Source: Arthrobacter sp. Leaf137 (GTDB lineage Bacteria > Actinomycetota > Actinomycetes > Actinomycetales > Micrococcaceae). From it: a stretch of 64,000 nucleotides of DNA. The notes under the pieces are model-generated. The model was not told the DNA's origin and did no database searches. It saw nothing but the letters and a program-made list of their open reading frames with translations. Of the stretch, positions 41,415 to 45,739 are shown one piece after another (within the stretch, counting starts at the first letter, position 1; every line of letters starts with the position of its first letter). Position numbers and translations under genes: made by a program. The stretch is taken from NCBI RefSeq assembly GCF_001423525.1, contig NZ_LMOI01000019.1, forward strand, positions 1-64,000. The letters run 5' to 3'.

Positions 41415-42377
41415 CTAGAGAAGGGTGTCGGAGATGATGCGGGCACCGGGAACGGGACCGTGGACGGCAAGGGCGGACAGGCCTTGGTGCTGCAGATCTT
41501 CCGCCAGTGCTTCCGCTGCCACGGAGTCATCCGCGAGCAGGGCCACGGTGGGCCCGGAGCCGGACACGATGCCGGCGATGGCGCCGTGCGATTCGCCGAT
41601 GCCCAGCGTATCGCGCAGTGACGGGGCCAGTTCAATGGAGGCCCGCTGGAGGTCGTTGACCAGGATGCGGCTGAGGGCGTCTGCGTCGCCGCCGCGCAGG
41701 GCGGCCAGGATGTGCGGGTCGACGCCGGTGGGCTCGTCCGCGTGCACACCCTCCGCTTCCCGCAGCCTGTCCAAAGTCCGGAAGACTTCCGGGGTGGACA
41801 GCCCGAAATCGGCCGTAACCAGGACCCAGTGGGTCTTTGCCTTGGCGAGTGCCGGTGACAGCTGGTCACCAACCCCGAGCCCTACCGCCGTTCCGCCGAG
41901 CAGGGAGAACGGAACGTCGGCTCCGAGTTCGGCAGCAAGGTGCGCGAGTTCCTCCCGTGAGAGGCCGCTGTTCCACAAGGCATCGCAGGCCAGGAGCGTA
42001 GCGGCGGCGTCAGCCGATCCCCCGCCCATCCCGCCGGCCACGGGCACCCGCTTGGTGATTTCCAGGTGGACCCCTGTGGCGTGCTCGGAAACGTCGGCCA
42101 TGATGGCGGCGGCCCTGTAGGCCAGGTTGCTGGCGTCGAGGGGAATGTCGACGGCGTCAAGGTCAAGGGTGCTGCCCGGGCTCAGGCTCACCGTGATGCC
42201 GGGCGTTTCCGTGCTGGTGGCGGCGACTTCTTCATAGAGGGAGACGGCCAGGTAGACGCTGGCCACGGAATGGTAGCCATCCGGCCGGAGCGGGCCGACG
42301 TCCAGCGAGACGTTGATCTTCCCAGGCGCCTTGACCCGGACCGTCCGCGCGGCGAACCGGACGGCGGGCGTGTTCAC
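41415..42377 (-). CDS. ispE: 4-diphosphocytidyl-2-C-methyl-D-erythritol kinase
   Basis: A 320-residue GHMP kinase of the MEP isoprenoid pathway. Motifs: [14 protein letters not shown] near residue 14, the ATP loop [18 protein letters not shown] near 110, and [13 protein letters not shown] near 265. The GTG start overlaps the rsmA stop (GTGA), so translation is coupled. The order rsmA-ispE-ABC-F is standard in Micrococcales. Confidence 0.96.
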
Positions 42378-43246
42378 GCGCCCGCTTCCTTGGCTTCGGC
42401 GATCCTGGCGAATGCGGCGATGTCGATGACCTCACCGCGTGCGGTGGGGTCGACGCCGGCCGCCAGCAGGCAGCGTTCGGCTTCCGCCCCTCCCCCGGCC
42501 CAGCCGCTGAGCGCTGCACGCAAGGTCTTCCGCCGTTGGGCGAAGGCTGCGTCAATCACGGCAAAGACCTGTTGGCGGGTGGCGCTGGTGGCAGGCGGCT
42601 CGCGTCGGGTGAAGGCGACCAGTCCGCTGTGGATCTTGGGCGCGGGCCAGAACACGTTCATGCCGATCACTCCGGCTTTGCGCATCTGGCTGTACCAGGC
42701 CGCCTTGACCGACGGAACGCCATAGGTCTTCGAGCCCGGACCGGCGGCCAGCCGGTCGGCTACCTCGTCCTGGACCATGACCAGGCCATGCTGCAGGCTC
42801 GGGAAATGCTCCAGGAGGTGCAGAACCACAGGGACCGCCACGTTGTAGGGCAGGTTGGCTACCAGCGATGTTGGTTCGACGGGAAGGTCCGTGACCTTCA
42901 TGGCGTCAGCCTCGACGAGGTGGAAATTCCCGACGGCGGCCGGCCGCCATTCAGCCACAGTGGCCGGAAGCTTGGCGGCGAGGACGGGATCGATCTCCAC
43001 TGCCACGACGGCCGCGGCGGCGTCCAGCAGGCCCAGCGTCAGTGAGCCGAGGCCTGGGCCGACTTCCAGGACCGTCTCATTGGCCGCGATTCCTGCTGCG
43101 GACACGATCCTGCGGATGGTGTTGCCGTCAATGACGAAGTTCTGGCCGAGGGTCTTCGTGGGCCTGACACCGATCTCCCCTGCCAGCCGGCGAATGTCGG
43201 AGGCACCGAAAAGCGGTGCGGGCGCGGCGGGGTTGGGTTCAGTCAC
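42374..43246 (-). CDS. rsmA: 16S rRNA (adenine1518/1519-N6)-dimethyltransferase
   Basis: A 290-residue KsgA. It dimethylates the two adenosines of the 3'-terminal 16S rRNA hairpin during late 30S assembly. Motifs: [15 protein letters not shown] near 30, the SAM site [15 protein letters not shown] near 58, and motif [16 protein letters not shown] near 127. The GTG at 43246 is the start. It overlaps ispE by 4 bp. Confidence 0.96.
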
Positions 43247-43379: not shown

Positions 43380-44573
43380 CTAGCTGCTGGCTGCCCAGCC
43401 GCAGCCCCACGGCTGCAGGCCGCGCTGCGCGTACACGCGGTTCGCGATGTCGATCTGCTGTGCCTTGGTGGCCAGGCTGGCGTTGGGGGCGTAGGCCCCG
43501 CCGCCGGCGCCGATCCACGTCCGGATGTCGAACTGCAGGCCGCCGTAGTAGCCGTTGCCGCTGTTGATGCTCCAGTTTCCGGTGGACTCGCACTGGGCGA
43601 TCTTGTCCCACATGGCTTCGTTCATCATGGCCGGAGCAGCAGCGCCGGTGTTGCTGCCGGCGGCCGGGGCCGCAGCGGCCTGGGCGACGGGCTTTGCCTT
43701 GGTGCCGACCGTGACCTTCTCAGCGACAGGCTGGACGGCTACGGCTTCAGAGACGAGGGTGCGGGAGGCTTCACGGCCGTCCACGAGGACCAGCTTGAAG
43801 GTCTTCTCCAGCTTGCCCGCAGCGCCTGCCTGGGTGACTTCCTTCTCGCCCTTGAGCATCTCGGCGTCTTCGGTGGTCACGGTCTCGAAGGGGACGTCCT
43901 CGGTGGTTTTCGCCGTCTGGCCGTTATCAACGCGGGACACTTTGATCACCATGTTGTTGACGACGTGCGCGTTGGCGGGCTGGGAGGTCCTGTCGTTGGC
44001 GCCGATGGTCAGCCCGGCGCCCTGGAGCACGTCGCCTACAGTGGCCGCGGTGGTGGTGGTGGTGTTCACCTTGCCATCGGCGACGATGCTGACGGACTTG
44101 GGGGTGGAGATGGACACGAAGGAGCCGGCAAGTGCGAGCTGCGCGTCCTTGGGAACGGACAGCGATGAGGTGCTGGCCACGCCGAGTTCGGTGACCAGGC
44201 CTGCGACGTCCTGCGCGGTGGTACTGACCGTTTTTTCTGCTCCGTCGAGGCTGACCTTGACTTCCTTGGCCTGGTTGACGTTAATGACGGTTCCGTTGTG
44301 GACCGAGGCGTCGATGGCTGGGGAAACCCTGTCTGCGGGCTTCAGTTCGATGTTGGCGCCCTTGACGACCTGGCCTACGGTGCCGCCGAAGGTCTGGACG
44401 GAAGAGACCTTGCCATCAACGTTGAGCGTGACGGTTTTGTTATTGCCGACGAAGGCTACGAGCCCCGCTACCAGGGTGCACAGCACCAGCAGCTGGGCTC
44501 CAACCTTGAAAAAGCTGATCTTGCCATCCGATGTGAAGAACTTGACCACGATTGCCCGTAACTTTAGGTCCAT
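43380..44573 (-). CDS. rpfB: RpfB-like resuscitation-promoting factor
   Basis: A 397-residue secreted or membrane-anchored muralytic factor. An N-terminal hydrophobic helix (~25-45) is followed by repeated DUF348 modules (~46-210), a G5 domain (~215-295, with EDVPFETVTTEDAEML), an Ala-rich linker, and the C-terminal Rpf lysozyme-like domain (~318-397). The catalytic Glu is in AQCESTGNWSINSG, and a cysteine pair is present (AQCES and PWGCGW). It cleaves peptidoglycan and promotes resuscitation from dormancy. The start at 44573 has no clear ribosome binding site. The ~190-nt leader carries a terminator-like hairpin. Confidence 0.92.
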   Translation of the reverse strand: MDLKLRAIVVKFFTSDGKISFFKVGAQLLVLCTLVAGLVAFVGNNKTVTLNVDGKVSSVQTFGGTVGQVVKGANIELKPADRVSPAIDASVHNGTVINVNQAKEVKVSLDGAEKTVSTTAQDVAGLVTELGVASTSSLSVPKDAQLALAGSFVSISTPKSVSIVADGKVNTTTTTAATVGDVLQGAGLTIGANDRTSQPANAHVVNNMVIKVSRVDNGQTAKTTEDVPFETVTTEDAEMLKGEKEVTQAGAAGKLEKTFKLVLVDGREASRTLVSEAVAVQPVAEKVTVGTKAKPVAQAAAAPAAGSNTGAAAPAMMNEAMWDKIAQCESTGNWSINSGNGYYGGLQFDIRTWIGAGGGAYAPNASLATKAQQIDIANRVYAQRGLQPWGCGWAASS

Positions 44574-44596
44574 CCGGGCACGGGGATTTGCGCAGT

Positions 44597-44634
44597 AAAA
44601 TGCCCGGCACCGCCTTTGAGCAGCAGTCCGGGCA
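44597..44634 (-). terminator. Terminator-like hairpin inside the Rpf leader (possible attenuator)
   Basis: On the minus strand TGCCCGG, a 20-nt loop, then CCGGGCA are followed directly by TTTTA (44600-44596). It lies only 23 bp upstream of the Rpf start and downstream of the predicted promoter. An intrinsic terminator at this position suggests conditional termination. Confidence 0.5.
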
Positions 44635-44760
44635 CCTTTGCGCCGCCTGCTTCCCGACAGCGGCCATGTCGGAACGGGGTCCCGGCATGTGATGCTGAAA
44701 AGGAAGCGAAATTACCCGTTGGCCTTCCCCGACCCCGGCTAATAGTTTTCCACTGTAACC
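44635..44760 (-). other. Structured leader of the Rpf gene (possible riboswitch aptamer)
   Basis: Between the predicted promoter and the terminator-like hairpin is GC-rich leader RNA. It contains a TTCCGACA/TGTCGGGAA hairpin (44651-44674) and GGGGAAGGCC-rich sequence. Rpf-type genes in Streptomyces are preceded by c-di-AMP (ydaO) riboswitches. Only fragments here resemble that motif, so the assignment is speculative. Confidence 0.3.
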
Positions 44761-44765
44761 GTAGC

Positions 44766-44803
44766 GTTATAAACGGACCAACAAATTTGCATACCACGTA
44801 TGC
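44766..44803 (-). promoter_or_regulatory. Predicted Rpf promoter with overlapping 15-bp palindrome
   Basis: TATAAC (44771-44766 on the minus strand) is a good -10. The expected -35 position falls inside the perfect palindrome GCATACcacGTATGC (44789-44803), a likely repressor operator. No strong -35 consensus is present. Confidence 0.45.
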
Positions 44804-44830: not shown

Positions 44831-45739
44831 TCAGCCCCAGGATCCGTATGCCCGCACCGTATTAGAGCTGATCCGGGTGCACAGTTCCGCGAGGTCCGTG
44901 CCTGTCAATTCGGCCATGGCCCGGACGGTGTAAGGCACCATATAGCTGGCGTTGGGCCGGCCCCGGTGCGGATGCGGGGTCAGGAACGGGGCATCCGTTT
45001 CCACCAGGACAAGTTCCGGGTATGCGACCGCGAGCGCGGACCGCAGGTTGGCCGCGTTCCGGAAGGTCAGTGTTCCGGCGAACGACATATACCAGCCCTC
45101 GCGGTTGCAGATGGCGGCAAGCTCCTCATCGCCGGAAAAGCAATGGAATACCACCCGGTCCGGAGCGCCCTCTTCCGCCAGAACCTGCACCACGTCGGCA
45201 TGTGCGTCCCGGTCATGGATCTGGAGGGTGAGGTCCAGCCGTTTGGCGATGTCAATGTGCCGCCGGAACGAGTACCGCTGGTGGGCCAGCCCCTCGCCTT
45301 CCGTGCGGAAGAAGTCGAGGCCTGTCTCGCCAATGGCACGGATCCGCGGGTGGGCTGCCAACTGCTCTATCTCGGCGAGGGCGTCTTCGAGTTCGCCGCG
45401 GGCGGCATATTCCGGAGCATCATTGGGGTGCAGCGCCACAGCGCCCAGCAACCGGTCATCCTGCTGCACCGTCTGAAGGGTGAACCGCGACGATTCCAGG
45501 TCGCAGCCCACCTGGACTGCCCCCTGGACACCGACGGCGGCAGCGGCATCCAGGGCCGCGGTTATTCCCACCGGCCCTTTCCCATCAGGAAAATCCAGGT
45601 GCGTGTGGTTATCCATCACGGGTACCGGCAGCGGTTCGGGCGCTGGCGGATATTCGCGTTTGGGGGATGCCGCGGCACTCTGGGAACCGCCCGTTGAGGG
45701 TTCGCGGTAGGCATCGGGGGTCTGCGGACTGCACATCAC
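44831..45739 (-). CDS. tatD: TatD family metal-dependent hydrolase/DNase
   Basis: A 302-residue TIM-barrel hydrolase. Metal ligands are all visible: DNHTHLDF near residue 43, GETGLDFF near 137, QIHDRDAH near 172, VVFHCFSG near 198, and VETDAPFLTPHPH near 245. Members are 3'-5' exonucleases. The ~40-residue Pro/Ser-rich N-terminal extension is unusual; the true start could also be GTG or ATG nearer residue 40 (VMDNHTH). The tandem ATG at 45739/45736 follows GGAG. Confidence 0.92.
   Translation of the reverse strand: MMCSPQTPDAYREPSTGGSQSAAASPKREYPPAPEPLPVPVMDNHTHLDFPDGKGPVGITAALDAAAAVGVQGAVQVGCDLESSRFTLQTVQQDDRLLGAVALHPNDAPEYAARGELEDALAEIEQLAAHPRIRAIGETGLDFFRTEGEGLAHQRYSFRRHIDIAKRLDLTLQIHDRDAHADVVQVLAEEGAPDRVVFHCFSGDEELAAICNREGWYMSFAGTLTFRNAANLRSALAVAYPELVLVETDAPFLTPHPHRGRPNASYMVPYTVRAMAELTGTDLAELCTRISSNTVRAYGSWG

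Follow-up and report, generated by a model that had tools for sequence, protein, structure and literature searches.

A conserved leader before rpfB in a Pseudarthrobacter relative and other actinobacteria as a candidate cis-regulatory RNA with two competing helices

The window analysed here is a stretch of 64,000 nucleotides. Its source genome is that of a Pseudarthrobacter relative, and the closest named locus is that of P. chlorophenolicus with 98% protein identity. On the minus strand the gene order is tatD-[leader]-rpfB-ksgA-ispE, and rpfB, ksgA and ispE are probably co-transcribed. The RpfB encoded in the window consists of three DUF348 stretches, a G5 domain and a transglycosylase-like domain. 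RpfB cuts peptidoglycan and helps to end dormancy, and is therefore tightly controlled by the cell. The genes of the locus are:

44831 to 45739, minus strand: tatD-like DNase gene, upstream of the leader (PF01026)
43380 to 44549, minus strand: rpfB with DUF348, G5 and transglycosylase-like domains (domain and open reading frame calls)
44547 to 44549, minus strand: GTG, proposed start codon of rpfB, replacing ATG 44573-44571 (110 loci of the genus compared)
42374 to 43246, minus strand: ksgA-like rRNA adenine dimethylase gene (PF00398)
41415 to 42377, minus strand: ispE-like GHMP kinase gene (PF00288, PF08544)

The sequence-only reading had taken the ATG at 44573 as the start of the Rpf protein, and this assignment did not hold. 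At this position 69 of the 110 genus loci read ATG, whereas the codon 24 nt 3' of a conserved CCCGG in the leader is GTG in 106 loci and ATG in three. In the remaining locus (L090) the GTG is located one base further on and is out of frame with the upstream ATG of that locus. Because the GTG is kept at a fixed distance from CCCGG and the ATG is not conserved, comparison of these loci indicates that RpfB most likely starts at GTG 44549-44547, eight codons past the ATG of the open reading frame list. Outside the genus 80 leaders were compared, and in all of them but L217 a start codon that opens at least 60 codons lies 20-25 nt 3' of CCCGG (79/80). The same list contains an upstream open reading frame inside the leader (44688-44440).

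The leader set comprised 207 leaders, 163 of them distinct, from 30 loci of relatives, 80 named loci, and stretches sampled in further genera of the family and in other families. In 177 of them both conserved elements of the leader were strong, and these provided 142 distinct promoters for the promoter counts. The features upstream of the transcript are:

44789 to 44803, minus strand: palindrome GCATACGTGGTATGC upstream of the -35 element (ATA..gGTAt conserved in the genus alignment)
44776 to 44781, minus strand: -35 element TTGGTC (TTG 16-20 nt upstream of the -10 element in 139/142 distinct promoters)
44755 to 44770, minus strand: MtrA-like direct repeat with an 11-bp period, ATAAC (44770-44766) and GTTAC (44759-44755)
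44752 to 44757, minus strand: -10 element TACAGT (TAC..T in 141/142 distinct promoters)
44743 to 44746, minus strand: predicted transcription start, 6-9 nt after the -10 element

A different -10 element, TATAAC at 44771-44766, had been proposed in the sequence-only reading. This hexamer is present, but it is kept in 93 of the 142 promoters compared with 141 for TAC..T, and its position reads GGTCAC, GATCAC and similar in the other promoters scored. It represents the upstream half of the MtrA-like direct repeat, for which NNNAC is found 11 bp upstream of GTTAC in 140/142 distinct promoters. The 15-bp palindrome of the same reading exists at 44803-44789, but it is located upstream of the -35 element (44781-44776) and not over it. 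Its ATAC..GGTAT, just 5' of the -35 element, is kept in most aligned leaders of the genus and was not recognised in those of other genera when the leaders were read by eye; the palindrome is possibly a genus-specific operator. The region before UAGCC had also been considered as an RNA hairpin and was dropped, as it is promoter.

In PMC6265350 the MtrA motif is given as a 9-nt direct repeat spaced by 2 nt, and binding of MtrA to the region upstream of M. tuberculosis rpfB is described. The repeat in the window is of this published kind when compared with the motif description rather than with a weight matrix, and MtrA would be expected to bind the rpfB promoter of the window. With its 11-bp-period direct repeat at an rpfB promoter the locus resembles the MtrA-controlled promoters described in PMC6265350 and PMC5650626; here the similarity is one of sequence, and the repeat is silent on the RNA element.

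The features of the leader itself are:

44711 to 44743, minus strand: hairpin H1 (covariation and arm-exchange tests)
44743-44740 and 44714-44711, minus strand: H1 extension AUUA/UAAU
44738-44736 and 44718-44716, minus strand: H1 stem CCG/CGG
44734-44731 and 44724-44721, minus strand: H1 stem GGUC/GGCC
44730-44725, minus strand: H1 loop GGGGAA
44726 to 44738, minus strand: 5' strand of helix P1, CCGGGGTCGGGGA
44587 to 44710, minus strand: leader middle, differing between genera in both sequence and length
44596 to 44634, minus strand: terminator-like hairpin TGCCCGG..CCGGGCA, then TTTTA
44573 to 44586, minus strand: 3' element TCCCCGTGCCCGGA, with the 3' strand of P1 at 44586-44574
44553 to 44580, minus strand: alternative hairpin H2, TGCCCG (44580-44575) with CGGGCA (44558-44553), just 5' of the start codon

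The claim that the leader is folded was confirmed by a predicted energy of -98.6 kcal/mol (z -3.2), which none of 200 shuffles reached. The conserved parts, which the sequence-only reading had missed, are a hairpin at the 5' terminus and a complementarity between the two ends of the leader. Hairpin H1, at the presumed 5' end of the transcript, has the form CCGGGGUC-GGGGAA-GGCC..CGG and is extended by AUUA/UAAU. The complementarity, helix P1, connects UCCCCGUGCCCGG (44586-44574) with CCGGGGUCGGGGA (44738-44726) and contains a 2x2 internal loop (G.G, U.U). Both ends are rigidly placed: the spacing from the -10 element to AGCCGG of H1 is 11 nt in 133 of 141 promoters, and the 3' element, with UCCCCGUGCCCGGA as the second part of the two-part leader element, keeps the distance of 20-25 nt to the start codon given above. 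The middle is variable, with 80-231 nt between the two elements in the 177 strong leaders, and no conserved ligand-binding core was seen in it across the compared leaders.

H1 was analysed in 81 distinct stretches of 40 bases, aligned without gaps; many of them do not keep register in the lower stem. In this alignment 73.1% of the cells are paired, 51 cells are changed on both sides compared with 26.2 after shuffling, and the covariation score is 0.202 compared with 0.136 (0/500 shuffles as good), with slid versions of the helix scoring at most 0.126. Pair 16-27 occurs as GC in 62, AU in 12, UG in two and GU in one of the sequences. The numbers of pairs changed on both sides and of pair types were not above those of the shuffles (111/500 and 125/500). 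A register-free test gave -13.2 kcal/mol for the own arms and -11.2 kcal/mol for swapped arms, with 0/5000 permutations as good, also for 28 distinct arms; the permutation tests of H1 and of P1 ignore relatedness, which inflates all these figures. Among 55 distinct stretches inspected, all but L191 fold locally at the H1 arm, and the loop GGGGAA is found in 70 of 81 distinct 5' ends. H1 is thus a conserved structure with compensatory changes, and the same can be said less firmly of P1.

The pairs of P1 were counted in 150 distinct leaders from 197 loci, with L184 anchored at a wrong place and with L179, L180, L181, L183, L191, L194, L196, L238, L240 and L241 dropped, in which the helix is shifted in register, absent or reduced to a mini form. 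Standard pairs occupy 97.4% of the cells of the 11 pairs, and 12 cells are changed on both sides compared with 1.3 after shuffling. An exchange of arms was performed for P1 and H2 with 81 distinct 5' stretches, omitting L180, L238, L240 and L241 and with anchors fixed for L179, L181, L183, L184, L191, L194, L196, L201 and L208. The own arms of P1 were better than 5000/5000 permutations, both for the whole helix and for its inner part. The outer part is nearly invariant, with 74/5000 permutations as good; its five pairs hardly vary and therefore provide little information. In 22 divergent leaders P1 was not significant (417/5000 for the whole helix and 830/5000 for the inner part). P1 is thus backed by invariance and some covariation, weaker than H1, and a pseudoknot between the H1 loop GGGGAA and UUCCCC, with H1 kept, explains the inner P1 pairs equally well. 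For H2 the support across species is weak (240/5000 permutations as good, and 743/5000 in the divergent set), and this hairpin is impossible in families f36 and f43, because AAGGAG-like or CAGGAG sites precede the start there.

The predicted energies of the two alternatives are of similar size. In the window the best fold with P1 has -93.2 kcal/mol and P1 a predicted probability of 0.97; if P1 is barred, the best predicted fold contains H1 and H2 with -89.9 kcal/mol. For 67 representatives, with 13 loci left out beforehand, the difference between the best folds without P1 and without H1 was 1.9 kcal/mol on average (sd 3.3) with both signs, and P1 was favoured in 36 leaders, H1 in 14 and neither in 17. 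A whole-leader consensus fold on a MAFFT alignment was not trusted, because the leader middle does not align between clades.

The stem followed by TTTTA, which the sequence-only reading had placed before the Rpf ATG as a terminator, is present as TGCCCGG..CCGGGCA-TTTTA at 44634-44596, with the proposed GTG start 46 nt downstream of the end of TTTTA. The reading as a terminator found less agreement: the core with TTTT is found in 44 of 110 genus loci, so that attenuation by this hairpin is not common to the element, and a promoter and terminator scan, which needs at least five T in eight, does not list it. Within this subclade the hairpin may still terminate transcription. A second GTGCCCGGA is located within it at 44635-44627. 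Of 105 distinct genus leaders, 48 contain an extra copy of the core of the 3' element, GTGCCCGG, in their middle (0.9 expected), a figure inflated by relatedness; outside the genus 6 of 79 leaders do so (0.6 expected). The copy in the window, 44627-44635, is the 5' arm of the terminator-like hairpin. Several genera furthermore have in common a hairpin-like stretch around CCGTTCGTA in mid-leader, with flanks such as TTGGACGT / ACGCCCAA (L149, L150, L158-L162, L210, L211, L214-L216), possibly a second conserved domain.

To describe the distribution of the element we used a profile of the 5' part, R1, and a short model, R2. Within the family R1 matched 110 of 197 genomes from 22 of 32 genera at E<=0.01, 15 of them only weakly (E>1e-7) and many of these partially, and found no match in the other 87. 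In the order 117 of 149 genomes gave something at E<=1, much of it presumably by chance. Both elements could be read in 19 loci of the order outside the family (L178-L192, L194, L196, L200, L201), which span the families f5, f7, f8, f12, f15, f16 and f18; according to a simple motif 17 of these precede a DUF348-like frame, the absent calls being L192 and L200. In L194 and L196 the 5' part is further from the promoter, and L195 and L199 have the promoter only. Class-wide, R1 matched 9 of 98 genomes (E<=0.005) and R2 70 of 148 (E<=0.02, many weak). Of 18 R2 loci that were examined, 13 carry the two elements ahead of an RpfB-like frame, with eleven of them in f36 (from genera g106, g120 and g135) and one each in f5 and f43; the other five (L264, L265, L267-L269) and the R1 match L249 were taken as chance or coding sequence. 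The element is accordingly found ahead of rpfB within its own family, in seven further families of the order and, outside the order, in two families of the class (f36, f43). L238 appears to have lost it. L240 and L241, from one genus, are natural mini leaders which have lost the middle and keep CCGGG/CCCGG in a short hairpin by the start region.

The model that we favour, with a probability of about 0.45, is that the leader is an uncatalogued orphan cis-regulatory RNA in which an exchange between H1 and P1 controls the translation of rpfB. Transcription would start around 44746-44743 at the MtrA-type promoter, and the message would therefore begin with H1. The 5' arm of H1 and its GGGGAA loop are predicted to pair with the fixed UCCCCGUGCCCGG just 5' of the start codon. 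In one state H1 would be kept and the 3' element would be free, or in the genus paired with the bases before the start codon as H2. In the other state H1 would be swapped for the long-range P1, which would link the 5' end with the region of the start codon and free the bases before the start. This exchange would most likely set how strongly rpfB and, through coupling, the downstream genes are translated, and the variable middle would tune the balance of H1 and P1. In favour of this model are the occurrence of both elements before rpfB in many genera and several families, the covariation of H1, the pair counts and arm exchanges of P1, the rigid spacings on either side of a variable middle and the similar predicted energies. 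Against it stand the result for P1 in the divergent leaders and the near-invariance of its outer part, the two measures of H1 that did not exceed shuffles, the weakness of H2 and its conflict with f36 and f43, the 17 of 67 leaders that favour neither helix, the pseudoknot alternative, the missing core and the absence of the element from some relatives.

A serious rival, which we nevertheless consider rather unlikely, is a constitutive element: H1 or P1 would form a stable stem at the 5' end, shielding the mRNA or presenting the start region, and nothing would switch. The dominance of P1 in the predicted ensemble of the window (0.97), the lack of anything sensor-like common to the leader middles and the reduction of L240 and L241 to one short hairpin all agree with it, but a near-fixed loop (70/81 GGGGAA) together with the 3' element exceeds the needs of a plain stem, and two competing helices are both kept. 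We judge it distinctly less probable that the hairpin at 44634-44596 with its TTTTA acts as a transcription attenuator, ending transcription unless the leader refolds. The hairpin and its T stretch are there, and PMC6009663 reports an intrinsic terminator at the end of the rpfB leader of M. tuberculosis; the stretch comprises four T only, however, and in addition to the limited occurrence of the core within the genus and the missing call by the scan, the conserved elements are located elsewhere. That only the DNA matters, as an operator or promoter part with an incidental RNA fold, would fit the strong conservation of the promoter and the MtrA-like repeat and the occurrence of such a promoter in another genus that lacks the RNA element. 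It hardly fits the covariation of H1 and a 3' element which is fixed relative to the start codon and variable relative to the promoter, and we regard it as very improbable.

The sequence-only reading had suggested a riboswitch-type leader of the c-di-AMP (ydaO) class. An RNA-based control element is supported by the deep conservation and the covariation, but the class assignment is not. A covariance search with the Rfam family ydaO (RF00379) gave no match in the leader even at E<=10, and none in the leaders of 18 relatives at E<=5, whereas the same genome contains six RF00379 matches above the cut-off (L112-L117). Because these six matches show that the test works and the leader has none, the ydaO reading fails. 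The leader shares with ydaO that it is a leader RNA of actinobacterial cell-wall hydrolase genes, and PMC9960051 describes ydaO elements ahead of rpf genes of other actinobacteria; the conserved sequences differ, and we give practically no credence to a divergent ydaO riboswitch. The genes after the six ydaO elements encode M23, SLT or NlpC/P60 domains, in one case NlpC/P60 together with LysM, and c-di-AMP therefore appears to control cell-wall hydrolases in this genome apart from rpfB. From Rfam 15 nothing scored above threshold in the leader or in the 18 relatives; among the sub-threshold matches in the leader P4 ranked first with 16.8 bits (gathering score 37), and the relatives gave three unrelated sub-threshold matches. 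A search of viral contigs for an exact 21-mer match was negative.

Operons of ribosomal proteins are known for autogenous leaders that mimic rRNA. The rpfB leader is similar to these in that the operon encodes an rRNA-modifying enzyme and a leader hairpin partly resembles the substrate of this enzyme; it differs in that the resemblance is one of sequence and that the loop deviates in 11 of 81 distinct 5' ends. KsgA might accordingly regulate its own operon by binding to H1 as an imitation of 16S helix 45. The position of ksgA after rpfB in the gene order is in line with this idea, as is the similarity between helix 45 of the genome, CCGUACC-GGAA-GGUGCGG, and H1, CCG..GUC-GGGGAA-GGCC..CGG. The deviating loops, which include those of most f15 leaders, are evidence against the mimicry, the likeness of a short hairpin to helix 45 may be due to chance, and our literature search met no paper on KsgA autoregulation via such a leader. 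We consider this explanation improbable.

As a further comparison, we analysed 14 loci, covering 13 genes in 12 genomes, from a genus whose RpfB sequence suggests Mycobacterium. Neither leader element exceeded the maximum of 300 shuffles of one upstream region from this presumed Mycobacterium: the best scores were 12/18 and 12/14 letters, compared with shuffle maxima of 14 and 13. The promoter TTGC..GTTACCGT was recognisable in 12 of the 14 loci (not in L270 and L281). As this promoter is recognisable and the leader elements do not exceed shuffles, the promoter appears to be shared, whereas the leader RNA differs. Schwenk et al. 2018 (PMC6009663) describe an RNA switch of M. tuberculosis rpfB, in which the leader of the rpfB-ksgA-ispE operon can adopt two folds and which is limited to a subset of pathogenic mycobacteria. 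The element described here has the same operon position, tatD-rpfB-ksgA, and is similar to that switch in the nearby TAC..T-type promoter, the lack of a known ligand and a re-annotated start codon (PMC6009663). The two differ in that the mycobacterial switch is described as terminator-based (PMC6009663) and in that the presumed mycobacterial loci yielded neither H1 nor the 3' element. Literature searches, mostly of open-access papers, met no rpfB-leader RNA outside mycobacteria, and the main text of PMC2864571 does not mention rpf, resuscitation or ksgA.

Taken together, the analysis corrects the promoter of rpfB and the start codon of RpfB. The only rpfB RNA switch met in the literature searched is that of pathogenic mycobacteria, which has no known ligand; the leader element found here is another one, almost invariant in sequence across several families of the class and unmatched in Rfam 15. 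Pseudarthrobacter represents a tractable non-pathogenic model, and single-base predictions for the H1 arm, the loop and the 3' element bear on how resuscitation in actinobacteria might be gated jointly with the maturation of ribosomes (ksgA). In a more speculative version, which we regard as a long shot, the leader would belong to a widespread undescribed class of actinobacterial leader RNAs in which H1 mimics helix 45 and KsgA, or immature ribosomes competing for KsgA, set the exchange of H1 and P1. If this were true, the exchange set by KsgA would couple ribosome maturation to a cell-wall enzyme that ends dormancy.
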